Assembly (NCBI GenBank): GCA_958295805.1
Contig: OY282373.1
Location: 591,001 to 655,000, forward strand
From: an uncultured Nitrospirales bacterium
GTDB taxonomy: Bacteria > Nitrospirota > Nitrospiria > Nitrospirales > UBA8639
DNA: 64,000 bases
Reading direction: 5' to 3'
Under the pieces are notes generated by a model, which was not told the DNA's origin, did not search any database, and was given only the letters and a program-made list of their open reading frames with translations. The translations under genes and the position numbers were made by a program. Positions 39,958-63,300 of this stretch are shown one piece after another; the stretch's first letter is position 1, and the number at the start of each line of letters is the position of its first letter.

Positions 39958-41257
39958 GACGGATTGAAGACCTCGGCGTGTTCAGACCTGAGCATCACGT
40001 TATTGAGAAGAGCCGGCCCAGCGTGCCGTGTTTTCCCAAGACAAAGACAAGAGAAAGATGCTATAGAAAGGGCATTTTTAGTGTCAATGCAGCCAAACCC
40101 CCAAGATCACCAATCACCGACACCCGGAATCCAGAACATGATACCCTCCGCCACGGTCCAGGCATTCCCCACCCGTCATTCCCGGGCATTCCCCCACCCG
40201 TCATTCCCAGGCATTCCCCACCCGTCATTCTCCAAGCATGCCCCACCCGTCATTCCCGTGGAATTCCCCCACCTGTCATTCCCGCCGGTTGTTAGCGGGA
40301 ATCCAGAAAGAAGAGCCATGAACCCGACCGACCTCGCCCCACGCCTCACCTTCGCAGTCATGGCCCCGTCCTGCGATGACGAGGCTGATACACGACGCTT
40401 TGTCCTTGTCCCAAGCATTTCCCCACCCGTCATTCCCGTGGGATTCCCCCACCTGTCATTCCCGCCGGTTGTTAGCGGGAATCCAGAAAAAAGAGCCATG
40501 AACCCAATCGACCTCGCCCCACGCCTCACCTACGCAGCCATGGCCCCGTCCTACGATGACGAGGCTGATACACAACGCTTCGTCCTTGTCCCAGGCATGC
40601 CCCACCCGTCATTCCCGTGGGATTCCCCCACTGTCATTCCCGCCGGTTGTTAGCGGGAATCCAGAAAAAAGAGCCATGACCCCGACCGACCTCGCCCCAC
40701 GCCTCACCGTCGCAGCCATGGCCCCGTCCTGCGATGACGAGGCTGATACACGACACTTCGTCCTTGTCCCAAGCATGCCCCACCCGTCATTCCCCGGGCA
40801 TTCCCCACCTGTCATTCCCGCCGGTTGTTAGCGGGAATCCAGAAAAAAGAGCCATGAACCCGATCTACCTCGCCCCACGCCTCACCCTCGCAGTCATGGC
40901 CCCGTCCTGCGATGACAAGACTGATACACGACGCTTCGTCCTTGTCCCATGAATGCCCACCCGTCATTCCCCAGGCATGCCCCACCCGTCATTCCCGGGC
41001 ATTCCCCACCTGTCATTCCCGCCGGTTGTTAGCGGGAATCCAGAAAGAAAGAGCCATGAACCCGACCGACATCGCCCCACGCACCACCGTCGCAGCCATG
41101 GCCCCGTCCTGCGATGACGAGACTGACACACGACACTTCGTCCTTGTCCCAAGCATTCCCCACCCGTCCTTCCCCGGGCATGCCCCACCCGTCATTCCCG
41201 GGCATTCCCCCACTGTCATTCCCGCCGGTTGTTAGCGGGAATCCAGAAAGAAAAGCC
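39958..41257. repeat. array of duplicated gene heads behind hairpins
   Basis: After about 40165 the DNA is built of short units like CCCACCCGTCATTCCCGGGCATTC (22-28 bases) and larger units of 178-202 bases. Each larger unit has a hairpin (ATTCCCGC, loop, GCGGGAAT), then ATG and 31 codons of one peptide (MNPTDLAPRLTFAVMAPS... FVLV). The ATGs lie at 40318, 40498, 40676, 40854, 41056 and 41258. The last copy (41258) continues into an ORF of 66 codons, whereas the first five run into the GTCATTCCC units and stop at the hairpin TAG in some frames. From 39958 to 40164 I see nothing. Confidence 0.85.
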
Positions 41258-41458
41258 ATGAACCCGATCGACCTCGCCCCACGCATCACCTACGCAGTCA
41301 TGGCCCCGTCCTACGATGACAAGACTGATACACGACGCTTCGTCCTGGTCAACGAAGTGCAAGGAGTCGAGCCGCTGACCGGAGATGATGACCCGACAGG
41401 AAAGGAAGCAGTAAAAAAGGCAGGAAAAATCCTTAGCGTTCACGGTAGCCAAATATGA
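41258..41458 (+). CDS. unrecognised 66-residue protein, parent of the duplicated heads
   Basis: The frame from ATG 41258 starts MNPIDLAPRITYAVMAPS, like the five heads upstream, and alone continues VNEVQGVEPLTGDDDPTGK and AVKKAGKILSVHGSQI. It has no signal peptide or membrane segment and I do not recognise it. The ribosome site is weak (AGAAAAGCC). Its stop overlaps the next start as ATGA, which suggests a two-gene unit. It sits 15 bases after its hairpin copy. Confidence 0.6.
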   Translation: MNPIDLAPRITYAVMAPSYDDKTDTRRFVLVNEVQGVEPLTGDDDPTGKEAVKKAGKILSVHGSQI

Positions 41459-41712
41459 CCAGGACGCGGAAAACAGAGAAAAGGTTGAATCATAAAGGGC
41501 AAGTCAATATTTTAGCCAGGGATACCGAGACGGCTTCCACGAGCGACAAAACCGTCAACCGCGTGCTGAAAGGAACGCTCGAATTCATCCGACGCCTACA
41601 GCAAGCGCGAGGAATCACAATCCAGATGAAAGTCAAGAAAGAGAACGTGCTGGTTGACTTCAATCTCGCAGGATTCAGCAAGGCCATCAATAAACAGTGT
41701 TGGCATAAGTAG
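41455..41712 (+). CDS. unrecognised 85-residue protein coupled to the previous gene
   Basis: This small basic protein (MTRTRKTEKRLNHKGQVN at the start, IQMKVKKENVLVDF in the middle, NKQCWHK at the end) has no signal peptide. A helix-rich centre (DKTVNRVLKGTLEFIRRLQQ) is predicted by eye. The start overlaps the upstream stop (ATGA), the usual sign of coupled translation. I cannot name a family. Confidence 0.6.
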   Translation: MTRTRKTEKRLNHKGQVNILARDTETASTSDKTVNRVLKGTLEFIRRLQQARGITIQMKVKKENVLVDFNLAGFSKAINKQCWHK

Positions 41713-41742
41713 ACCGCACCACGTGTGGTCAAAGGAGGAAGC

Positions 41743-42669
41743 ATGGCGACGAAGGATTTCATTCTGGATCTCGGCAAATTGATGATCGGCATTGCCTGGA
41801 TCGACGGTCGGCTCCAGCAGGAAGAGATGAACGCGCTGAAAGAACTGTTGTTTCTCCTGCCGGAAATTTCCGGCGAAGATTGGATGCAACTGGAACTCTA
41901 CATGACCCACGCGGTCACGGACGCAGAACGGCAAGACCTGCTCAATCGCGTACTCTCCGGCGTTCGATCATCCAAGGATAAACGGCTCGTGTTGGAAACA
42001 CTGGAGAAACTGGTCGCGGGTGAGGGACGGCAACCGGGAAGGGAAGCGGAATGGGTCAATCACGTTCGTCAGGATATCGAACGACGCGGCGCGGGGTTGA
42101 TCGCCCACTTGACGGCCCCCCTTCGGCAAACCTTGAAGAACAAAGCCGGCCGGTATCGGGGAGCGTCGTCCCGTGAAGATCACATTGAAGATTTCATCAA
42201 GAACACGATTTACTTTCAGTTGAGTGCAGAACTCTCCAACCAGGGACGGACGCTGGCCCTCCCCGAGACGGAAGCCCGCAAAATATGCTTGGCCGCGGGG
42301 ATCATGGCGCACGTGGCGTGGGTGGACAACGACGTGTGTCATCGTGAACGTGACGCCATGAGGCTGGGGCTCCAACAACTGTGGAACGTCCCGAAAGACG
42401 AAGCCGAACTCATTGCCGACATGAGTCACACCCGCATCATGCACGGCTTGGATCTGGTTCGCCTCACCAGGGGGTTTTGCGACTATACGACGCTTCAAGA
42501 GCGAAAGACCTTTCTCCGGTGTCTCTTCGCCGTTGCCAACGCCGCGGAGAACGTGTCTCACGCAGAAATTGAAGAAATTCGACGGATTGCCAAGGCCCTG
42601 GAATTGCCCCATCGAGAATTTATTGACGCAAAATTAACCGTGTCTCGTGAAGACCGAGGCGGGTTATAG
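41743..42669 (+). CDS. TerB-like protein with two TerB-type domains
   Basis: This protein of 308 residues from ATG 41743 has a strong ribosome site (AAAGGAGG). The first half starts DFILDLGKLMIGIAWIDGRLQ with acidic residues (QEEMNALKELLFLLP) as in TerB metal-binding helical bundles. The second half repeats the pattern (ICLAAGIMAHVAWVDNDVCHRERDAM, then LRCLFAVANAAENVSHAEI). Such proteins sit in tellurite-resistance and membrane-stress neighbourhoods, but no other ter genes are present. A longer frame from 41725 begins inside the ribosome site. It is followed 15 bases later by murJ. Confidence 0.82.
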   Translation: MATKDFILDLGKLMIGIAWIDGRLQQEEMNALKELLFLLPEISGEDWMQLELYMTHAVTDAERQDLLNRVLSGVRSSKDKRLVLETLEKLVAGEGRQPGREAEWVNHVRQDIERRGAGLIAHLTAPLRQTLKNKAGRYRGASSREDHIEDFIKNTIYFQLSAELSNQGRTLALPETEARKICLAAGIMAHVAWVDNDVCHRERDAMRLGLQQLWNVPKDEAELIADMSHTRIMHGLDLVRLTRGFCDYTTLQERKTFLRCLFAVANAAENVSHAEIEEIRRIAKALELPHREFIDAKLTVSREDRGGL

Positions 42670-45289: not shown

Positions 45290-45701
45290 GTGCCTCTCCT
45301 CCTCCCTCATTCGTCCAACACCCCCGATCAAACGAAAAAGATATACCAAAATTTCCCAATCCCCGTAAAGTATCCCCCCTCCGCCCCCCTCTTCTTCCCC
45401 ACGAACCGCTGAGGGACACCCCCCTCCTCCCCCTCTCCCCTTGCGGGAGAGGGCCAGGGTGAGGGGTCTCCTCCCCTGATGTTCCAACGACACTACCACC
45501 CCGCAGCCGCCGGGTCGTCCATGTGTAGGGCGCCATCTCATGGCGCCTCCGAGCCCCTGCCGAGCAGGCCCGGTCCCGCGGCCGCCGGACCGTCCATGTG
45601 TAGGGCGCCATCTCATGGCGCCTCCGAGCCCCTGCCGAGCAGCCCCGGTCCCGCTCCCGCGGCGGTCGTCCAGGCAGCAATATTGCCCGCCTGTTATTTA
45701 C
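45290..45701. repeat. spacer after gltA with REP-like hairpins
   Basis: It holds a CCCTCTCCCC-TTGC-GGGAGAGGG hairpin at about 45431-45450 and two copies of GTGTAGGGCGCCATCTCATGGCGCC (hairpin arms GGCGCCAT and ATGGCGCC around CTC, at 45529-45547 and 45604-45622) in a GC-rich context. The 75-base spacing is about half of the 139-base period seen at 47.6-48.2 kb. No gene is present. Confidence 0.8.
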
Positions 45702-47018: not shown

Positions 47019-47604
47019 AGGAGAATTCTCCGCGTGAGGCAAGCAGTCGTCAACCATAGCCACGTACTAATAGAGGATCCCGTCAAAAAAAACCACCCCC
47101 CGCAGGGCTCCCATTGTCATTCTGAGCGAAGCGCCTGCCCTGAGCCTCGAAGGGAAGAATCTGCCTTCCCATTTGCCCGAGCATGACGCCGGGGGCGTGG
47201 AACAGCGGATCGAGTACGGGCATTTCTTCCCCTCACCCCGCCCCTCTCCCGCAAGGGGAGAGGGAGTACTCTCCCGCTGTCACTCCCGCGAAACCTGTCC
47301 CCAACATTTGTTATCGGAGAGCGGGAATTCAGAGATGATGCCGGGCACATTCATGGCGTGTCCTCCGCCATCCCGCCCCCCTCCGCCCTTCCGCCCTCCC
47401 ATTGTCATCCTCCCCTCCCATTGTCATCCTGAGCGAAGCGAAGGATCTGCTTTTCTCTCCCTGTCCTCATGGGTGGACCCGGTGCGGGAACGAACCAGAT
47501 TCTTCCCCTCGAGGCCCTTCGAGGCTCAGGGCAAGCTCAGGGCAGGCGCTTCGCTCAGAATGACAGAGAAGGAAGAATGACAGACAAAGTCAGAATGAAT
47601 CCCG
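47019..47604. repeat. spacer upstream of gltA with dispersed repeats
   Basis: It has a long-form CATTCTGAGCGAAGCG repeat with GAGCCTCGAAGGG (47116-47162), a CCCTCTCCC-GCAA-GGGGAGAGGG type hairpin (about 47240-47262), a hairpin-like GTCACTCCCGCGAAACC..AGCGGGAATTCAG (about 47279-47333), and CATCCTGAGCGAAGCGAAGGATCT (about 47425-47448). CCTTCGAGGCTCAGGG and GCGCTTCGCTCAGAATGACAG (about 47517-47567) are copies in the opposite orientation. No gene is convincing. Confidence 0.7.
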
Positions 47605-48152
47605 TCCCCGCGGCCGCAAGGTCGTCCGTGTGTAGGGCGCCATCTCATGGCGCCGCCGCACCCCTGCCGAGCCGGCCCGGTTCCGCGGAGGCGGGGGGGG
47701 TCGTCCAAGCGGCAATGTTACCCTCCCGGTGTTTGCCTATCCCGTCCCCGCGGCCGCAAGGTCGTCCGTGTGTAGGGCGCCATCTCATGGCGCCTCCGAC
47801 CCCCTGCCGAGCCGGCCCGGCCCCGCGGCCGCGCAAGGTCGTCCAGGCGGCAATGTTACCCTCCCGGTGTTTGCCCATCCCGGCCTCGCAGCCGCCGGGT
47901 CGTCCGTATGTAGGGCGCCATCTCATGGCGCCTCCGACCCCCTGCCGAGCCGGCCCGGTTCCGCGGCCGCGCAAGGTCGTTCAGGCGGCAACGTTACCCT
48001 CCCGGTGTTTGCCTATCCCCCGGCCCCGCAGCCGCCGGGTCGTCCGTATGTAGGGCGCCATCTCATGGCGCCTCCGCGCCCCTGCCGAGCCGGCCCGGCC
48101 CCGCGGGCGCGCAAGGTCGTCCGAGCGGCCAGGTTGCCCGCCTGGTGTTTGC
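47605..48152. repeat. 139-base tandem array derived from the gltA 3' end
   Basis: Four units of 138-140 bases follow one another, with hairpins GGCGCCAT-CTC-ATGGCGCC at 47636, 47776, 47914 and 48054. Each unit also has CCTATCCC..CCCCGCGGCCGC, which on the minus strand is the last codons and stop of gltA, then GTCGTCCGTGTGTAGG, the hairpin, CCCTGCCGAGCCGGCCCGG and GGCAATGTTACCCTCCCGGTG. The array continues into a larger gltA tail fragment at 48153. The first half-length spacing near 45.5 kb is related. Confidence 0.85.
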
Positions 48153-48257
48153 CTATCCCGGCCCCGCGGCCGCCGGGTCGTCCGGGCGTTGCACCATGGG
48201 AACGTAGCCGATGGCAGGGCGGCCGGTAGACAACTGTCGCGGCCTTCCGATGTGACC
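48153..48257 (-). pseudogene. gltA 3'-end fragment
   Basis: On the minus strand, bases 48257-48153 read GRPRQLSTGRPAIGYVPMVQR then PDDPAAAGPG and a stop. This is about 33 codons of the citrate synthase C terminus with a few substitutions, in the same order as in the true gene at 45.7 kb. The similarity ends abruptly at 48257, where unrelated sequence begins, about 110 bases before the giant gene. The rest of the gene is absent. Confidence 0.85.
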
Positions 48258-48365: not shown

Positions 48366-51300
48366 ATGAGAGAAGAAAAACCAATCCCGAAGAATCCTTT
48401 GACCGTCGTCGCGAGGAAAGTGGCAAGCATGGCAAAGGCGGACCCGCGATCCGCAAAAAACAGCATCAGTGTCGTGAAGGCCGCGGCCGGTAGAGGCCGG
48501 CGCGCGGCTGCCGGGCTGCCGTTCGCCGCGGCCTTCCTGGGCATCGCCCTCCTCGCGGCCTTCGCCGCGGCGCCGGCCGCGGCGCAGGACTCCTGCACGA
48601 CCTGCCTGGAGCGGCCGGTCGTCACCTCCACCCCGGCGTCGGGGAGCACCTACTATCCGGGCGAGACCATCGTGGTGCAGGTGCGGCCCCGGAACTCGCC
48701 CTGGGTCAGCATGACCAGCGCGGACAGCCCCACGCTGGGGCTCAACGTCGGCGGCACCGTCAAGTCGTTGAGCGGGAACCTCCAGAGCCGGCGATATTCC
48801 TACACCGTTTACGACCACGAACAAAGGCAGACCGTGACCCGCTCGCGGGATTCCAACGTGCTGGAGTTCCGCTACACGGTGCAGAAGGGGGACCGCGACA
48901 CCGACGGGGTGAGCGTGGCGGCGAACGCGCTGGGCGGCGGCAACATCGGCGCCAGCGTCGGCGGCGCCTTGTTCGGCGGCGGCGGGACCTGGTACCCGAG
49001 CCTCAGCAAGAACCACAGCGCGATGAGCGACCAGTCCGGCCACAAGGTGGACACGCGGGCGCCGACCTTCTCCGGGGTGACGGGCCCGGACATCATCTTC
49101 TACGCGGGCGCGTATGTGAACTACCGGCTGCCGGCGGTGGCCAACGCGGACGCCGTGCACAACCTCACCTATTCGGTGACGTCGGCGCGGCCGCTGCCGA
49201 ACCTGCCGCTGAACCTGCTGGTGGGCTATTCGCTGAACGCGACCACGCGGGCGATCACGGGGTCGTGGACCAGCGCGTTGTCGCGGAACAACTACACGCT
49301 GCGGGCGACCGACGGGTTCGGCCGCACGGCCGATCTGACGTTCCACCTGCAGGTGAGCACCGACGCGGGGATCGAGGCGATCACGATCACGTCGGACCCC
49401 GGGTCGGACGACACCTACGGCAAGGTCGCGCCGTTCGGGACGAACGACACCATCACCGTGAATGTGGACTTCACGCACCGGCTCACGACGGTCCTCGGGT
49501 CGAGGGTGTGCCTGAGAATCCAGATCGGGAGCAACACCCGCACGGAGTGCGAGCCCTCCTCTTACACCTCGGACTCCAGCCGCTGGGACAAGCTCGATTT
49601 CAGCTACGCGGTGCAGGCGGACGACTGGGACGGCGACGGCATCTCCTTCCCGACGAACCCGATGGGCGCCGGCAAGGACGGCGGCCTCCGTTTCCGCATC
49701 ACCGGAGTCGGCACTGACAACCGGGTGAACCGGAGCTTCGCGTCGATTCCGGCCGACGCGAACCACAAGGTGCGCGGGCAGCAGACCGTGCCGAGCTTCG
49801 GCTCGACGGCCAGCCCTGTCTATAGCTGGGTGAAGGGCAACGCGGTCTCGCAGGCGCTGCCGGCGGTGCCGGCGGCGACGGACGGCGACGGCGGCGTGAC
49901 CTACACCATCGAGGGGAACCTGCCGGCCGGCCTGAGCTTCGCCGCAGCGACGCGAACCATTTCCGGCACGCCCACCGCGGCGCAAGGGGCGACGAACTAC
50001 ACGCTGGCGGCGACGGACGGCGACGGCGACAAGGCGACGCTGCGCTTCTCCATCGAGATCGAGGAGATCGCGGTGTCGATCTCCTCGCCGAGCGTGGCGG
50101 AAGGCGCGGCGGACGGGACGGCGACCCTGAAATACGACGTGACCCTGAACCGGGCGCCGGGGCGGCGGGTGACGGTGGCCTACGCCGCGGCCGCGGACCC
50201 GGGCACGGCGGAGGCGGACGCCGACTACGCGACCATTACGGGCGGGACGCTGACCTTCGCCGCGTCGGAGACGAGCCGGACCTTCGAGGTGGGGGTGAAG
50301 GGGGACGCGCTGGACGAGCCGGACGAGACGGTGCGGATCGCGCTGAGCAACCCCTCCGGGGCGGTGCTGGGGAGCGCGTCGACCGGGGTGGGGACGATCA
50401 CGGACGACGACCCGACGCCGACGCTGGCGCTGGCCCTGTCGGCCTCGACCATCGACGAGAGCGGCGCGGGCAACGCGACCACGGTGACGGCGAGCCTGAG
50501 CGGCGGGACCTCGGGCGAGGAGATCGTGGTGACGGTGACGGTGACGGGCGGGACCGCGGCGGCGGGCGACTTCAGCCTGTCGAGCGACAAGACGCTGACC
50601 ATCGCGGCCGGGGCGACGACGAGTTCGGGCACGGTGACGGTGACGGCGATGCACGACACGACGGACGAGCCGGCCGAGACCGCGACGGTGGGCGGGACGG
50701 TGGCCGGCGGGCACGGGCTGGTGGCGGCGCCCGAGGGCCTGACGCTCACCATCGCCGACGACGACGCCGCGCCGGGGGTGACGCTGTCGGTATCGCCGGC
50801 CTCGGTCTCGGAGAACGGCGGGGTCTCCACGGTGACGGCGACGCTGACGAACCCGTCGAGCGCGGCGACGACGGTGACGGTGACGGCGGCGGTCACGGGC
50901 CTCTACACGGTGGGGTCGGACGCGAGCATCGTGATCGCGGCGGGCGAGACGGCGAACGCCGCGGACACGGCGTTGATCGTGGCGGTGGACGACGACGTGC
51001 ACCAGGGCAGCGCCGGGCGTTCGACGACGGTGACGGCGACGGCCGCCAACGACCAGGGGACGACGGGGAGCGTGACCGGGGCGCCGCTGACGCTGACGGA
51101 CGACGAGGATCTGCCGGAGGTGACGCTGGTCCTGTCACCGACGTCGATCTCGGAGAGTAGCGGGGTCTCGACGGTGCAGGCGACGCTGTCGGTGGTGTCG
51201 AGCGCGGCGGTGACGGTGACGGTGACGGCGGCGGCGGGCACGGGGGCGATTGCTGCGGACTTCAGCCTGTCGAGCAACAGGACGCTGACGATCGCGGCGG

Positions 51301-54300
51301 GGAATACGACGAGCGGGATCGCGGTGCCGTGGGTGACGGTGACGGCGAACGGGAACACGGTGGATTCGCCGGACAAGCAGGTGACGGTCTCGGGGACGGC
51401 TTCGGGCGCCAACGGGGTGGTGGCGCCGTCGGACGTGACGCTGACGGTGACCGACGACGAGGATCCGCCCACCGTGGCGCTGGTCCTGTCGCCGACATCG
51501 ATCTCGGAGAGTAGCGGGGTCTCGACGGTGACGGCGACGCTGTTGGGGGTGTCGAGCGAGGCGGTGACGGTGACGGTGGGGGCGGCGGGCGCGACCGCGT
51601 CGGCCGGCGACTTCAGCCTGTCGAGCGCGACGACGCTGACCATCGCGGCGAGGGCGACGACGAGCACCGGCACGGTGACGGTGACGGCGATAGACGACGC
51701 GACGGACGCGACGCACGAGCCGGACGAGACGGTGACGGTCTCGGGAATGGTGTCGGGCGGCAACAACGTCGCGCCCCCGTCATCGGTGACGCTGACACTG
51801 ACCGACGACGAGGCGCTGCCGAGGGTGACGCTGGCCCTGTCGTCGTCGTCGATTTCCGAGGGCAGCGGCGTGACCACGGTGACGGCGGCGCTCTCCGGCG
51901 CATCCAGCGAAGCGGTGACGATCACGGTGTCCGCGTCGCCGTTGTCGGGCGCGGTCGTGGCCGACTACGCGCTGAGCACGAACAGGACGCTGGTCATCGC
52001 CGCGGATTCGACCGCGAGCGCGGGGACAGTGACGCTCACGGCGGTGAACAACGCGGTCCAGACGGCGGACAAGACGGTGACGGTCTCGGGCGCGGCGTCA
52101 GGCGGCAACGGCGTGTCGGCCCCGGCGGGCCTGACCTTGACGATTACCGACAACGACGGCTCCCTGCCCGGCGGCGTGACGCGCTGGACGAACGGCGGCC
52201 TGCCGGGGGCCGATTGGGACGTCGACACGGCGTCGCTGCTCGGCAAGACGGCTTCGCAGCCCATCGCGATCTCGGGAACCTACGTCCCGCACATTATCGA
52301 CGTCTGGGCGTGCGCCAACAAGACGGTCACCCGGAGCGGGAGTCTCTCCAACCAGCCGAGCAGTACCGACTGCACGAAACTCGCCAACGACATCAATACC
52401 GCGAGGTCCGTGACGATCGCGCTCACGCAGGCGATGATCGACAACGACGGCGTCGTCATCATCTTTACGATAGGGGGCGGTAGCAGCACGCAGTACGTCA
52501 ACGCCGAGTGGGTGCCCATCGTGGCGCTTCCCAAGGCGACGCTCTCGTTGTCTTCGTCGTCGATCGCGGAGAACGGCGGGGTCTCCACGGTGACGGCGAC
52601 GCTGGACAAGGCGGCGCTCTCGGCGGCGACGCTCACGGTGTCGGCGCCGGCGGGCGACCTCACGCTGTCCGCGGCGGCGACGCTGACCTTCGCGACGGGG
52701 GCGACGGCGAGCACCGGGACGGTGACGGTCACGGCGGTGAGCAATACGACCGACGCGCCGGACAAGCGGGTGAGCGTCTCGGCGACGGCGAGCGGCGACG
52801 TGCGGGCGCCGCCCGCCGCGACGCTGACGATCACGGACGACGACGCGGCGCCGAGGGTGTTGCTTGCGTTGTCTTCGTCGTCGATCGCGGAGAACGGCGG
52901 CGAATCGATGGTGTCGGCGACGCTCTCGCGTCCGTCGAGCGCGGCGACGACGGTGACGGTGACGGCGGTCGAGAACTTCTACACGGTGGGGTCGGACGCG
53001 ACCATCGTGATCGAGGCGGGCGAGACGGCGAACCCGTTCGGCGTGAACACGGTGATCATTACGGCGGTGAACGACGACGTGCACCAAGGCAGCGGCGGGC
53101 GTTCGACGACGGTGACGGGCACGGCCGTGAACAGCCAGGGGGTGGGGGACGTGACCCTGCTCGGGGCGACGCCGCTGACGCTGGAGGACGACGAGACGTT
53201 GCCGACGGTGGCGCTGGCGCTGTCGGAGCCGGACCCGACGAATCCGGAGACCATCTTCGAGAGCTGGTCGGGCGCGAGCATGGTGACGGCAACGCTGTCG
53301 AGCGCGTCGAGCGCGGCGGTGACGGTGACGGTGGCGGCGACGGGCGTGACCGCGGCGGCCGGCGACTTCACGCTGTCGAGCGACAAGACGCTGACCATCG
53401 CGGCCGGGGCGACGACGAGCACCGGCACGGTGACGGTGGCGCCGGTGGACGATACGACGGACGAGGCGGACGAGACGGTGACGGTCTCGGCGACGGTCTC
53501 GGGCGGCAACGGTGTCGCGGCGCCGTCGAGCGTGACGCTGACGATCCGGGACGACGACGCGGCGCCTGGGGTGACGCTGTCGTTGTCGCCGTCGTCGATC
53601 TCCGAGAACGGCGGCGAATCGACGGTGACGGCGACGCTCACGCACCCGTCGAGCGCGGCGACGACGGTGACGGCGGCGGCGGTCACGGGCTTCTACACGG
53701 TGGGGTCGGACGCGACCATCGTCATCGACGCGGGCGAGACGGCGAACGCCGCGGACACGGCGACGGTGGTCGCGGTGAACGACGCCATCGACAACGTGGG
53801 CAACCGCTCGGCGACGGTGACGGGCACGGCGCAGAACAGCCAGGGCGTGGGCACGGTGATGGGCGCGAGCCTCACCCTCACCGACGACGAGGCCACGCCG
53901 AGGGCGACGCTGGCGCTGACTCCGGCGACGATCGCCGAGCACGACGGGACGAACCCCGGGTCGAGCACGGTGACGGCGACGCTGTCGGGCGTGTCGAGCG
54001 AGGCGGTGACGCTGACGGTGGATGCGGCGGCGGGGACGAACGCGGCGGCGGGCGACTTCAGCCTGTCGAGCGCGAAGACGTTGACCATCGCGGCGGGCGC
54101 GACGGGCAGCACTGGGACGGTGACGGTGACGGCGGTCGATAACGCGACGCATTCGCCGGACAGGTCGGTGACGGTGACGGCGACGGTCTCGGGCGCCAGC
54201 GGGGTGGCGGCGCCGTCGAGCGTGACGCTGACACTGACCGACGACGAGGATCTGCCGGAGGTGACGCTGGTCCTGTCGCCGTCGTCGATCTTGGAGACGG

Positions 54301-57300
54301 GCGGGGTCTCGACGGTGACGGCGACGCTGTCGGGCGTGTCGAGCGAGGCGGTAATGCTGACGGTGGGGGCGACGGGCGCGACCGCGGCGGCCGGCGACTT
54401 CAGTCTGTCAAGCGCCGAGACGCTGACGATCGCGGCGGGGCAGACGACGAGTTCGGGCACGGTGACGGTGACGGCGGAGAACGACGTGACGGACGAGCCG
54501 GACGAGACGGTGACGGTCTCGGCGACGGTCTCGGGCGCCAGCGGGGTGGCGGCGCCGTCAAGCGTGACGCTGACGATCACGGACGACGACGCGCTGCCGA
54601 CGCTGTCGCTGTCGCTGTCGGCCTCAACCATCGACGAGAGCGGGTCGGGCAACGTCGCGACGGTGACCGCGGCGCTCTCGCACCCGTCGGGCGAAGCGGT
54701 GACGGTCACGGTTTCGGCCTCGCCGGGCGCGGGGACGGATTTCACACTGACGGGAACGACGCTCACCATCGCGGCGGACTCGACGACGAGCGCGGGCGCG
54801 GTGACGATCACCGCGGCGAACGACACGACGGATTCGCCGGACAAGTCGGTGACGGTCTCGGGCGCGGCCACGGGCGGGCGCGGGGTGGGGGCCCCGACCA
54901 GCCTGACGCTCACCATCGAGGACGACGACGCGGCGCCGGGGGTGACGCTGGCGGTCTCGCCGACGTCGATTGCGGAGAACGGCGGGGTGGCGACGGTGAG
55001 CGCGACGCTCACGCATCCGTCAAGCGCGGCGACGACGGTGACGGTGATGGCGGCGTTGGGCTTCTACACGGTGGGGTCGGACGCGACCATCGAGATCGCG
55101 GCGGGCGAGACGGCGAACGCCGCGGACACGGCGCTGGTCACGGCGGGAGACGACGCCGCGCACAGTGGCGGGCGTTCGACGACGGTGACGGCGACGGCCG
55201 CCAACGACCAGGGGGTGGGGAGCGTGACCGGGGCGGCGCTGACGCTGACCGACGACGAGGATCTGCCGGAGGTGGCGCTGGTCCTGTCGTCCGCGTCGAT
55301 CTCGGAGACGGGCGGCGTGGCGACGGTGACGGCGACGCTGTCGGTCAGGTCGAGCGAGGCGGTGACGGTGACGGTGGACGCGGCGCCGGGCACGGGGGCG
55401 ATCGCCGCGGACTTCGATCTGAGCACGGCGACGACGCTGACGATCGCGGCGGGGCAGACGGCGAGCACGGGCGCGGTGACGGTGACGGCGAACGGGAACG
55501 CGGTGGATGCGCCGGACAAGTCGGTGACGGTTTCCGGGACGGCTTCGGGCGGCAACGGGGTGGTGGCGCCGCCGGACGTGACGCTGACGCTGACGGACGA
55601 CGAGGCATTCCCGAGGGTGGCGCTGGTCCTGTCGTCCGCGTCGATCTCGGAGACGGGCGGCGTGGCGACGGTGACGGCGACGCTGTCGGTGGCGTCGAGC
55701 GAGGCGGTGACGGTGACGGTGTCGACGACGCCGATCTCGGGGTCCGACTTCACGCTGAGCACGGCGAGGACGCTGACCATCGCGTCGGGGCAGACGACGA
55801 GCACGGGCGCGGTGACGGTGACGGCGGAGCACGACACGACGGACGAGACGGACGAGACGGTGACGGTCTCGGCGACGGTCTCGGGCGGCAACAATGTCGC
55901 GGCGCCGTCGAGCGTGACGCTGACGCTGACCGACGACGAGACGCTGCCGACGGTGACGCTGGCCCTGTCGTCGTCGTCGATTTCCGAGGGCAACGGCGTG
56001 ACCACGGTGACCGCGGCGCTGTCCGGCGCATCCAGCGAAGCGGTGACGGTCACGGTGTCGGCGGCGCCGTTGTCGGGCGCGACGGTGGCCGACTACGCGC
56101 TGACCGCGAACAGGACGCTGGTCATCGCCGCGGATTCGACCGCGAGCACGGGGACGGTGACGCTCACGGCGGTGAACAACGCGGTCCAGACGGCGGACAA
56201 GACGGTGACGGTCTCGGGCGCGGCGTCGGGAGGCAACGGCGTGTCGGCCCCGGCGGGCCTGACGTTGACCATTACCGACAACGACGGCTCCGTGCCGACC
56301 GGCAGCGCGACGACGTGGCGCAACGTCGGCCAGACACAGACCAATTGGGACGTCACCACGATGTCGCTGGTCGCCGAGATCTCCCAGCAGACGATCGAGT
56401 TCACGGGAGGCTACGAGCAAGGAAATGTGGACGTCTGGGCGTGCGCCAACAAGCAGGTCGACCAGCGGGCGCATACCAACATCCCCGGGCCGAGCAGCAC
56501 CGAGTGCACGAAACTCGACAACGACATCGGGGGCGCGAGGTCCGTGGCGATCACGCTCACGCAGGCGATGATCGACAACGACGGCATCGTCATCCTCTTC
56601 ACGAGAGAGTGGACCGGTAGCAACGTGATCTACTACAACACGGAGTGGGTGCCCATCGTCGCGCCACCCAAGGCGACGCTCTCGCTGTCTCCGTCGTCGA
56701 TCTCGGAGAACGGCGGGGTCTCCACGGTGACGGCGGCTCTGGACAAGGCGGCGAGCGCGGCGGCGACGCTCACGGTGTCGGCGGCGGCGGTGGCCCCGGC
56801 GGCGGCGGGCGACTTCAGCCTGTCGAGCGCGAATACGCTGACCTTCGCGACGGGGGAGACGGCGAGCACCGGGACGGTGACGCTCACGGCGGTGGACAAC
56901 GCGATAGACGCGCCGGACAAGACCGTCACGGTCTCGGCAACGGCGAGCGGCGACGTGACGGCGCCGCCCGACGCGACGCTGACCGTCACGGACGACGAAG
57001 GTGGGCTGACCGTGGTCGAGAGCGGCGGTTCGACCGCGACCACGGAGGCGGGCGGCACGGATAGCTTCACGGTGCGCCTGACGTCCAACCCGAGCCAGAC
57101 CGTGTCTGTGCTGGTTACCAGCCAGGACACCTCCGAATGCGAGGTGTCGGCGGACGGCGGCGCGACGTATGGCGTCTCCGGGACCGTCGCCATGGTGCCC
57201 ACCGGCGGCGACGCCACGGCGGCCGCGGCGAGCCTGTGGAATTCGCCGCATACGGTGACGGTGCGGGGCAAGGACGACGATGTCAACGACGGCAACCAGA

Positions 57301-60300
57301 TTTGCCGGGTGACGGTGGACCCGAGCGAGACCGGCGCCAGTACCCTGCCGTATAACCGTGTGAGTACCCAGACCGTGTCGGCGACCAACGAGGACGACGA
57401 CGTCGCCGGGCTGACGGTGAGCGCGGTGACGGGGCAGGCGACGGAGGCGGGCGGGACGGCGACCTTCACGGCGAAGCTGGCGACGCGGCCGACGGCGGCG
57501 GTGACGGTGACGGTGACGGGCGGGGACGCGAGCGAGGGCACGGTGTCGCCGTCGTCGCTGACCTTCGCGCCGGGCACCTGGAACGCGGCGCAGGCGGTCA
57601 CGGTGACCGGCGTCGACGACGACGTGGACGACGGCGATCAGACCTGGGACGTCACCTTGAATCCCGACAGCGCGCCAGGGTCGGCGGGAGACGCCCACTA
57701 CCGCGCCCTCAACAACGCCACCGTCAGGGTGAGCACCACGGACGACGACACCGCGGGCGTGACCGTCACCCCCACCGTCCTGACCGTGACCGAGCAAGCC
57801 GCCACCGGCGCGACGTTCACCGTGGCCCTGGCCTCCGAGCCTCCCCCCGGGACCACGGCGGTCCGTCTCAGTCGCTCCGACGCCGAGATCGATCTGAACG
57901 GCGTCCGCACGTACCCGTACACCCTCTCGTTCAACCCGACGACCTGGAGCACGGCGCAGACGGTGACCGTCACGGCCTCCGCGGACAGCGACGTCCGGAA
58001 CGACACCAAGGAGATCAGATACACGGTGGCCGGCTATGCGGGCGGGGTGACGAACGAGGTCGCGGTGACGGTCACGGTCATTGACGACGACAAACCGATC
58101 GTGTCGCTGGCGCTGTCGGCGTCGTCGATCTTGGAGAACAGCGGGGTGGCCACGGTGACGGCGACGCTGGATCGGAGGGCCACCGAGGCGACGACGGTCA
58201 CGGTGTCGGCGGCGGCCGTGGCCCCGGCGATGTCAGGCGACTTCAGCCTGTCGAGCGCGCGTACGCTCATCATCCCGGCGGGTTCGACGACGAGCACCGG
58301 CACGGTGACGATCACGCCGGTCGATAACGCGACCGACGCGCCGGACAAGGCGGTGACGGTCTCGGCCACGGCGTCGGGCGGCAACGGGGCGACGCCGCCG
58401 TCGAGCCTGACGCTGACGATCGAGGACGACGAGAGGCTGCCGGAGGTGACGCTGGCCCTGTCGGAGCCGGACGCGACGAAGCCGGACACCATCAACGAGA
58501 GCGGGCCGGGCAACGCGAGCACGGTGACGGCGACGCTGTCGGGCGCGTCGAGCCAAGCGGTGACGGTGACGGTGTCGGCGACGGGCCTGACCGCGGGGTC
58601 GGGCGACTTCAGCCTGTCGAGCGCGACGACGCTGACCATCTCGGCGGGGCAGACGACGAGCACGGGCACGGTGACGATCACGGCGACGCACGACGTGACG
58701 GACGAGCCGGACGAGACGGTGACGGTCTCGGTGGCGGCGATATCGGGCGGCAATGGCGTGGCGGCGCCGTCGGACGTGACGCTGACGATTGCGGACGATG
58801 AAGATACGCCCACCGTGGCGCTGGCGTTGTCGCCGACGTCGATCGAGGAGGATGGCGGGGTCTCCACGGTGACGGCGACGCTGTCGGGCGCATCGAGCCA
58901 GGCGGTGACGGTGACGGTGGGCGCGACGGCGGGCACGGGCGCGGTCCGCGACGACTTCAGTCTGTCGAGCGCGACGACGCTGACCATCGCGGCGGGGGGT
59001 ACGACCAGCGCGGGCGCGGTGACGGTGACGGCGAACGGGAACGCGGTGGATGCGCCGGACAAGACGGTGACGGTGTCTGGCACGGTGGAGGGCGGCAACA
59101 ACGTCGCGCCGCCGTCGGACGTGACGCTGACGCTGACCGACAACGAGGATCTGCCGGAGGTGACGCTGGCGTTGTCGCCGACGTCGATCGGGGAGGACGG
59201 CGGGGTCTCGACGGTGACGGCGACGCTGTCGGGGGCGTCGAGTGAGGCGGTGACGGTGACGGTCGCGGCGGCGGCGGTGGCCCCGGCGGAGTCGGGCGAC
59301 TTCACGCTGTCCGGCGCGACGACGCTGACCATCGCGGCGAGGCAGACGACGAGTACGGGCGCGGTGACGGTGACGGCGAACGGGAACGCGGTGGATGCGC
59401 CGGACAAGACGGTGACGGTGTCCGGCACGGTGGAGGGCGGCAACAACGTCGCGCCGCCGTCGGACGTGACGCTGACGCTGACCGACAACGAGACATTGCC
59501 GACGGTGACGCTGGCCCTGTCGGAGCCGGACCCGCTGAAGCCGGACACCATCGACGAGAGCGGGGCGGGCAACGCGAGCACGGTGACGGCGACACTGTCG
59601 GGGGCGTCGAGCGAGGCGGTGACGGTGACGGTGTCGGCGACGGGCCTGACCGCGGAGGCCGGCGACTTCACGCTGAGCACGGCGAACACGCTGACCATCG
59701 CGGCCAGGGCGACGACGAGCACCGGCACGGTGACGGTGACGGCGAGGGACGACACGACGGCCGAGGCGGACGAGACGGTGACGGTCTCGGGCACGGTCTC
59801 GGGCGGCAACAACGTCGCGGCGCCGTCGGACGTGACGCTGACGATCGCGGACGACGAGGCGTTGCCGACGGTGACGCTGGTCCTGTCGCCGACGTCGATC
59901 GGGGAGGCCGGCGAGGTCTCCACGGTGACGGCGACGCTGTCGGGCGTGTCGAGCGAGGCGGTAGTGGTGACGGTGGGTGCGACGGCGGGCACGGGCGCGG
60001 TCGCCCGCGACTTCAGCCTGTCGAGCGCGACGACGCTGACCATCGCGGCGGGTTCGACGACCAGCGCGGGCGCGGTGACGGTGACGGCGAACGACAACGA
60101 CGTGGACGTCGCCGACAAGTCGGTAACCGTCTCGGGCACGGTCTCGGGCGGCAACATGGTGGCGGCGCCGTCGAACGTGACGCTGACGCTGACCGACGAC
60201 GACACCGCCGGCATCACCTTCAGCCCCGCCACCCTGACCCTGACCGAGGAAGGCCCCAGCCAGAAGTTCACCATGGTCCTGGACTCGGAGCCCACCGGGC

Positions 60301-63300
60301 AGGTGTTTATCACATTCCACCCGGACCCCGGGATCTCGGTGAAGGGCGCCGTGGCACCCCATACGTACTCCTGGGGGAGCCTCGACTCGTCGAACTGGGA
60401 CACGGGGATCACAGCGAGGGAGTTAACCGTCGCGGCCCTCGCGGACAGCAACAAGCAGGACGAGACCAGGTACGTCAAATATTCGATGTCCGGCTACGGC
60501 TCCTTCGACGCGCCGTTCAGCAACCCCAGGAATGGGGTGAAGGTGACGGTCATCGACGACGACAAGCCGGTCGTGACGCTGGCGCTGTCGGCGGCGTCGA
60601 TTTCGGAGAACGGCGGGGTGGCCACGGTGACCGCGACGCTGGATCGGACGGCGACCGAGGCGACGACGGTCACGGTGTCAGCGGCGGCGGTGTCCCCGGC
60701 GGCGTCGGGCGACTTCGGCCTGTCGAGCGCGACGATGCTGACCATCGCGACGGGTTCGACGACGAGCACCGGAACCGTGACGATCACGCCGGTCGATAAC
60801 GCGACCGACGCGCCGGACAAGTCGGTGACGGTCTCGGCCACGGTCGCGGGCGGCGACGGGGCGGCGGCTCCGTCCGACGCGACGCTGACCATCACCGACG
60901 ACGACGCGGCGCCCGGGGTGACGCTGTCGCTGTCGGCGTCGTCGATTATGGAGAACGGCGGCGTCTCGACGGTGACGGCGACGCTCTCGCACCCGTCGAG
61001 CGCGGCGACGACGGTGACGGTGACGCCAGTGTCAGGCTTCTACACGGTGGGTTCGGACGCGACCATCGTCATCGCCGAGGGGCAGACGGCGAACGCCTCG
61101 GATCCGGCGTTGGTGGCCGCGGCGAACGACGACGAGCACCAGGGGGCGGCCGGGCGTTCGACGACGGTGACGGGCACGGCCGCGAACGCCCAGGCCGCCG
61201 CCGAATCGGAGACCGTGACGGTGACCGGGGCGGCGCTGACGCTGACCGACGACGAGAGGCTGCCGGAGGTGGCGCTGGTCCTGGCGCCGGCGTCGATCAC
61301 GGAGAGCGGCGGCGTCTCGACGGTGACGGCGACGCTGTCGGGCACGTCGAGCGAAGCGGTGACGGTGACGGTGGACGCGGCGGCGGGCACGGGGGCGGCG
61401 GCCGCCGACTTCACGCTGTCCGGCACGACGACGCTGACGATCGCGTCGGGGGATACGACGAGCAGCGGCGCGGTGACGGTCACGGCGAACGACAACGCGG
61501 TGGATGCGCCGGACAAGTCGGTGACGGTCTCGGGGACGGTCTCGGGCGGCAACAACGTCGCGCCGCCGTCGAGCGTGACGCTGACGCTGACCGACGACGA
61601 GGACACGCCGATGGTGGCGCTGGTCCTGTCGTCGACGTCGATCTCGGAGAGTAGCGGGGTGACGACGGTGACGGCGACGCTGTCGGGCGTGTCGAGCGAG
61701 GCGGTGACGGTGACGGTGGGCGCGGCGCCGGGCACGGGGGCGGTTGCCGGCGACTTCAGTCTGTCGAGCACGGACACGCTGACGATCGCGTCGGGGGATA
61801 CGACGAGCACCGGCACGGTGACGGTGACGGCGATAGACGACGCGACGGACGAGGCGGACGAGACGGTGTCGGTGTCGGGGACGGTCTCGGGCGGCAACAG
61901 CGTGGCGCCGTCGAGCGTGACGCTGACGATCACCGATGACGATCCCGCGCCGATGCTCTCCATCGACTCGCCGAGCGTGACCGAGGGCGACAGCGGCTCG
62001 ACGGACTTGACCTTCACGGCGACCCTGAGCGCCGCCTCCGGACGCGAGGTGACCGTGGACTACGCCGATGCCGGCACCGGCACCGCGACTTCCGGGACGG
62101 ACTACACGGCGCTCACCGCCGGCACGCTGACCTTCGCCGCGGGGACGACCAGCCAGACCTTCGACGTGGCGGTGACGGGCGACGTTCTGGACGAAGCGGA
62201 CGAGACGGTGAACGTGCGGCTGAAGGATCCGGTGAACGCGGCGGTCTCGACCACGGCGGGCACCGGCACCGGGACGATCACGGACAACGACGCGACGCCG
62301 AGGCTGTTGATCAGCTCGCCGAGCGTGACGGAGGGCAACAGTGGCTCGACGGCGCTGACCTATACGGTGACCCTGAGCGCCGCCTCCGGACGCGAGGTGA
62401 CGGTGCAGTATGCGGACGCGGGCACGGGGACGGCCACGTCCGGGACGGACTACACGGCCATCACCAGCGGCACGCTGACCTTCGCGGTGGGGACGACCAG
62501 GCAGACCTTCAGCGTATCGGTGACGGGCGACACGGTGAACGAGTCGAACGAGACGGTGGAGGTGACCTTTAGCGGTGCGACGAACGCGACGATCTCGACG
62601 CGCGCCGGGCTCATCACCAATGAGCTAAGGGTTGATGGGACGATCACGGACGACGACGACGCGCCGGACACGATCACGCTGACGGTGGACGACGCCGACG
62701 TGGGCGAGGGCGACAGCGCCACCACGATCACGGTGACCGCCACGGTGGACGGCACGACCCGGTTCGCCGAGGCCACGACGGTGAGCGTGAGCGTGGCGGC
62801 CAGCGGCACGACGGGGGCGGTGGACTTCGCCGCGGTGTCGGATTTCAACATCTCTATCGCCGCCGGGGCGGCGAGCGCCACCGGAACCTTCACGCTGACG
62901 CCGACGGACGACTCGGACGACGAGACCGACGAGACCATCACCGTCAGCGGCACGTCGACCGGCCTGACGGTGAACCCGGACACGATCAGCCTGACGGACA
63001 ACGACGGGGTGCCGACCTCGATCACGCTGACGGTGAACGACAACAGCGTGGGCGAGGTCGACGGGGCGACCACGATCACGGTGACGGCCACGTTGGACGG
63101 CTCGACGACGCTCGGCTCAGCCACGACGGTGCGGGTGAACGTGGCGGGCAGCGGCGCCGCGACGGCGGTGGATTTCAACACGGTGTCGGCGTTCGACATC
63201 ACGATCGCCGCGGGCGACGCGAGCGGTACCGCGAACTTCACGCTGACGCCAATGAACGACGTAGTGGACGAGACCGACGAGACCATCACCGTGCGCGGCA

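Follow-up and report, generated by a model that had tools for sequence, protein, structure and literature searches.

A REP-linked tandem array that probably caught the start of an orphan open reading frame in a Nitrospirales genome

In an uncultured Nitrospirales bacterium, we found a tandem array in which a REP-like hairpin and the first 31 codons of a small orphan open reading frame (ORF) are repeated six times. We consider, with a probability of about 0.85, that a REP-linked tandem duplication caught the start of this ORF, and that the repeated starts (heads) are neutral by-products and no working cassette system. The window, the whole 64,000-nucleotide stretch that was analysed, covers positions 591001-655000 of the source assembly, which is a single contig of 2.9 Mb.

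Anatomy of the array and its site

The array is composed of six head-to-tail units (40156-41350), each with a hairpin, a leader, an ATG and 31 codons. The 32-nt hairpin GTCATTCCCGCCGGTTGTTAGCGGGAATCCAG is present in six exact copies (from 40275, 40455, 40633, 40811, 41012 and 41215), followed after a leader of 11-12 bases by the head ATGs at 40318, 40498, 40676, 40854, 41056 and 41258; the start-to-start spacings are 180, 178, 178, 202 and 202, and each of the two longer units has one extra copy of a GC-rich 24-bp micro-repeat, GCATTCCCCACCCGTCATTCCCGG. These results confirmed the preliminary description of this DNA, which had claimed six units of 178-202 bases with an identical hairpin, an ATG and 31 codons, and only in the last unit (41258) a continuation into a longer ORF that overlaps a second one by ATGA. 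The array is real and far above chance (tandem-repeat scores 1285 and 982), and its start was corrected from 40165 to about 40156. An assembly artefact is unlikely, given that no two units are identical in sequence and that the genome consists of one contig. The features are as follows:

40045-40089, no strand assigned: promoter-like block between the divergent MFS/spermine-synthase-like gene and terB, conserved across the genus
40090-41733, plus strand: species-specific insert with the array and both orphan ORFs, not in the relatives examined
40156-40274, plus strand: left edge of the array, with three additional 24-bp GCATTCCCCACCCGTCATTCCCGG micro-repeats 5' of the first hairpin
40275-40410, plus strand: unit 1, REP-like hairpin 40275-40306, leader and 93-base head 40318-40410
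40455-40590, plus strand: unit 2, hairpin and head 40498-40590
40633-40768, plus strand: unit 3, hairpin and head 40676-40768
40811-40946, plus strand: unit 4, hairpin and head 40854-40946, with a stop codon straight after the shared segment
41012-41148, plus strand: unit 5, hairpin and head 41056-41148, leader longer by one base
41215-41350, plus strand: unit 6, hairpin and head 41258-41350, the sole head that continues
41258-41458 (including stop), plus strand: 66-aa orphan ORF, continuing from the last head
41455-41712, plus strand: 85-aa orphan ORF, with an ATGA overlap with the 66-aa ORF
41743-42669, plus strand: terB-domain gene with a strong Shine-Dalgarno sequence (AGGAGGA); its synteny extends across the genus, and it borders the insert on the right

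Past the shared segment, the frames of heads 1-3 and 5 carry on into repeat-encoded nonsense. Long open frames carry little weight here, as the array region is covered by numerous spurious ORFs on both strands.

Relatives were found through the terB-domain protein, and most of the named ones are Nitrospirales/Nitrospira metagenome-assembled genomes. Synteny of the divergent MFS/spermine-synthase-like gene, terB and murJ extends to the closest relatives, where the divergent gene and terB lie about 160-170 bases apart. Alignment of ten syntenic intergenic regions showed that the conserved block ends in GTGTCAATG (40089 here), and that about 30 bases separate it from terB in 10/10 relatives' loci, compared with 1,653 bases here. 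The site is empty in these relatives, and therefore the array and both ORFs form an insert that is confined, as searched, to this species. The short gap between the block and terB in the relatives could not accommodate a promoter, which makes it probable that the insert is part of the terB leader. Through a consensus scan, we found an extended -10 like TGCTATAGA on the plus strand of the block and TTGACA-N16/18-TATAGC/TAGCAT on its minus strand; given the minus-strand TTGACA/TAGCAT match, the block might just as well belong to the divergent gene. An inverted repeat, GACCgcaCCACGTGTGGTC (window 41711-41730, -12.2 kcal/mol as RNA), is located just 5' of the terB Shine-Dalgarno sequence and is absent from the relatives. 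The end of the window (51085-64000) is occupied by a very long series of repeats of about 345 bp, which seem to be protein-coding and apparently represent one or more giant repeat-domain proteins.

The hairpin family and its other arrays

According to PMC3733652, CGTC-tagged REPs carry a CGTC (often TGTC) tag, a stem of 8-9 bp that opens with AT, and a CCA-type tail; their loops are 4 or 5 bases long, or of another length in some species, and CGTC-1 REPs are the dRS3 repeats of Neisseria. Judged by its sequence, the hairpin of the array has this tag, stem and tail and is a putative CGTC/TGTC-tagged, dRS3-like REP. Its 8-bp stem ATTCCCGC/GCGGGAAT begins with complementary AT, and its loop has 9 nt, with 4-nt-loop members such as ATTCCCGCGTGCGCGGGAAT elsewhere in the genome. 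Hairpins related to it by a perfect stem are dispersed over 82 sites in the genome (0 sites for the reversed control pattern), and each of the 14 genus genomes has members of the family. Across the 22 genome stretches examined, the unpaired tag is TGTC in 63 hairpins, CGTC in 6 and GGTC in 2, and most hairpins examined are followed by CCAG as a CCA-type tail. An origin from a RAYT was rejected, as the sole Y1_Tnp gene in the genome has no such hairpin within about 3 kb. Arrays near this gene (L093) contain GTAGGGTGCCATCTCAGGGCACC, which is similar to GTAGGGCGCCATCTCATGGCGCC, the palindrome of a second short-repeat family that forms two arrays in the window (140 bp x 4.2 at 47599-48184; 75 bp x 2.3 at 45500-45672).

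At least seven further arrays in the genome have hairpins at regular intervals, with differing unit content (194 x 4.5, 242 x 2.7, 310 x 2.9, 326 x 1.9, 187 x 1.9, 115 x 3.3 and 402 x 2.8). In addition, a 338-bp x 2.9 array at L092:4952-5919 (C1:2328951-2329918) repeats the 3' end (67 codons) of a 137-aa ORF. It holds three copies of the tail, the second and third without the ORF start, and its palindrome, CCCTCTCCC...GGGAGAGGG, is different from the hairpin studied here. One array contains an ORF tail and the other an ORF head; therefore, a piece of a neighbouring ORF has been caught at least twice.

REP arrays are also located directly 5' of core gene starts: one (L034:2251-2524) before an mnmG-like gene at L034:2557, and one (L032:1990-2873) directly before a pheT-like gene, while a third (L038:1558-1941) sits between nuoB-like and nuoC-like genes, all four names being assigned by reading translations only. 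Hairpins of the same family are regularly spaced at about 120 bp in a genus member, G008 (C29:10543-10816 and C126:20958-21333), so this genome is not the only one with tandem REP arrays.

Origin of the heads and competing readings

All five truncated heads end alike, in CTTGTCCCA, and then enter micro-repeats. At the same position the intact last head reads CTGGTCAACG, while the array's left edge reads ACGGTCCAGGCATT; the edge sequence GGTCCAGGCATTCCCC, within the left-edge part of the array (40156-40274), is similar to the joint at which every truncated head ends. This joint adjoins a GGTC microhomology, and a single duplication that connected the left edge with the ORF interior at GGTC would explain it. 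The microhomology step can only be inferred, because the founding joint is no longer pristine and shows one substitution and one extra base. Alignment of the six heads confirmed their equal length of 93 bases without indels. The preliminary description had regarded the preserved length and start codons as an odd structure, a view that we do not retain: with one founding duplication and a single shared joint, equal length follows from descent and not from preservation.

The alignment contains 18 variable columns, 14 with replacement and 4 with silent differences, exactly as had been counted by hand. Replacements make up 15 of the 19 changes, compared with 14.6 expected without selection when base changes of the observed types are put at random positions in the head (P about 0.5-0.7). 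This comparison gives no indication that the heads are under purifying or diversifying selection, and their amino-acid diversity does not exceed the neutral expectation; the earlier judgement that the diversity is near neutral and alone is no evidence of selection was upheld. Mean pN and pS among the heads are 0.098 and 0.058. All heads keep the ATG and lack an internal stop, which has a chance probability of 0.37.

Of 28 informative site pairs among the heads, 16 were incompatible in the four-gamete test. Without recombination, 19 mutations would give a mean of 0.5 incompatible pairs (P for at least 16, 0.0005), although this P rises to 0.07 with 40 mutations. The incompatibilities were likely caused by exchange between units, the last one included, and such exchange is expected because the tandem repeats are 90%-similar. 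The unit has diverged unevenly, since the hairpin is invariant (0/35 sites) while 18/93 sites vary in the heads (Fisher P 0.003). In the sister arrays, the hairpins are again less variable than their surroundings, and low variation therefore seems to be typical of the hairpin in general; it may reflect constraint or biased exchange. Homogenisation of the array's hairpins from identical copies elsewhere was rejected, since, of the listed genome sites, none outside this array has the exact loop.

These results suggest the following course of events. Within the terB leader, a CGTC/TGTC-type REP hairpin with a run of 24-bp GTCATTCCC micro-repeats would have stood immediately 5' of a small ORF specific to this species. 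An illegitimate tandem duplication would then have joined the point after codon 31 (CCTGGTC) to the micro-repeat left edge ACGGTCCAGGCATT, probably via the GGTC microhomology, forming the first truncated head. Unequal crossing-over or slippage may have raised the number to six copies, with 24-bp micro-repeats gained or lost, after which the heads would have gathered substitutions without detectable selection and been shuffled by recombination between units. The heads would thus be passive passengers, most likely without a function of their own. A REP-type amplification that caught a gene start was one of two explanations first offered for the array, and the hairpin family, the sister arrays, the single joint, the neutral substitutions and the second array with an ORF end all support it.

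The other explanation held that silent heads could recombine with the expressed copy. As a variation system, the five truncated heads would be silent cassettes that diversify the N-terminus of an expressed 66-aa protein, as pilS does for pilE in Neisseria. Exchange that includes the last head is indeed indicated, by a signal that comes from one genome of the species; the retained ATG, frame and length and the higher pN than pS point the same way. However, the replacement count is that of neutral change, the equal length is already explained by one joint, other arrays of the genome hold non-coding units or an ORF tail, and the 66-aa protein has neither a homologue nor a known role. Selection for such recombination was not seen, and the support narrows to the exchange, which the ordinary explanation predicts as well; we regard the cassettes as possible but unsupported, and as very improbable. 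Slimmer still is the chance that the heads are a reservoir for reshuffling the N-terminus of a small protein that is newly arisen and specific to this species, in which case REP amplification would have built a variation system from scratch. A regulatory role, with leader hairpins and decoy starts or small RNAs tuning terB-murJ or the 66- and 85-aa ORFs, seems a little less remote but is still improbable. The array does lie between the genus-conserved promoter-like block and terB, each hairpin is predicted to fold to about -14 kcal/mol just 5' of its ATG, and the hairpin is the invariant part of the unit. Yet the gene order is the same in relatives without the array, sister arrays occur in unrelated places, hairpin stability is only mildly better than that of shuffles (z -1.6 to -1.75), and we found no match to known RNA families (Rfam) in the window and no terminator-like site.

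The amplification mechanism would also fit if the two ORFs were not genes and the heads were non-coding unique DNA beside a duplicated REP, to which we give slightly less than even odds. The preliminary description had proposed a search of related genomes for the 66- and 85-residue proteins; neither has a homologue in the 396 phylum genomes, the GTDB species scan, Pfam, NCBIfam, PHROGs, PADLOC, plasmids or IMG/VR. The single IMG/VR match (L028) was rejected, as it lies within a 451-aa ORF that is unrelated and is due to chance. The 85-aa ORF, the one searched there, has no match in PDB sequences or phages, and the ORF segment has no homologue at the DNA level in 49 family genomes. Both ORFs are preceded by a weak Shine-Dalgarno sequence, as read from the sequence, their single-sequence structure models are of low confidence (mean pLDDT 49.8 and 52.9), and the substitutions in the heads are neutral. 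The proposed frames are not favoured by codon usage either, but the test is weak, with the true frame winning in under half of real-gene pieces. In contrast, the ATGA overlap, typical of coupled genes, and a gene-like G+C by codon position, low at position 2, mildly favour genuine genes.

Comparison with known systems

The hairpins share with the CGTC-tagged REPs described in PMC3733652 the TGTC/CGTC tag, the 8-bp stem beginning with AT, the CCA tail and the high copy number. They differ in the 9-nt loop of the present array (4-5 in those REPs), in flanking DNA that holds an ORF start, and in their host, as Nitrospirota was not among the five host phyla listed in 2013; CGTC-type (dRS3-like) REPs are apparently extended to this phylum. 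Same-strand arrays are common here, whereas for CGTC REPs the head-tail dimers were described as negligible, and it is for GTAG REPs that clusters reiterated in tandem with flanking DNA were reported (PMC3733652).

REPIN arrays also include flanking sequence, and the clusters of Pseudomonas fluorescens SBW25 resemble the present array in their head-to-tail, nearly identical REP and flank units at fixed spacing (PMC3116915); the differences here are another REP family, single REPs with micro-repeats, and an ORF start in the flank. The neisserial mosaic elements, with dRS3 and RS units and embedded pilS silent cassettes (PMC3898611), likewise alternate ATTCCC...GGGAAT palindromes with repeated units in intergenic arrays, and recombination between partial gene copies is possible in both. 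In contrast to them, the present locus offers no expressed surface antigen and no evidence of cassette function or an integrase. It is a fresh instance of a known process, REP-linked tandem duplication, and a readable example of REP-rich intergenic DNA duplicating pieces of neighbouring ORFs, in which the joint can be traced and the copies show signs of exchange. It also cautions that selection need not be behind the frame, length and start codons preserved in a repeat array.
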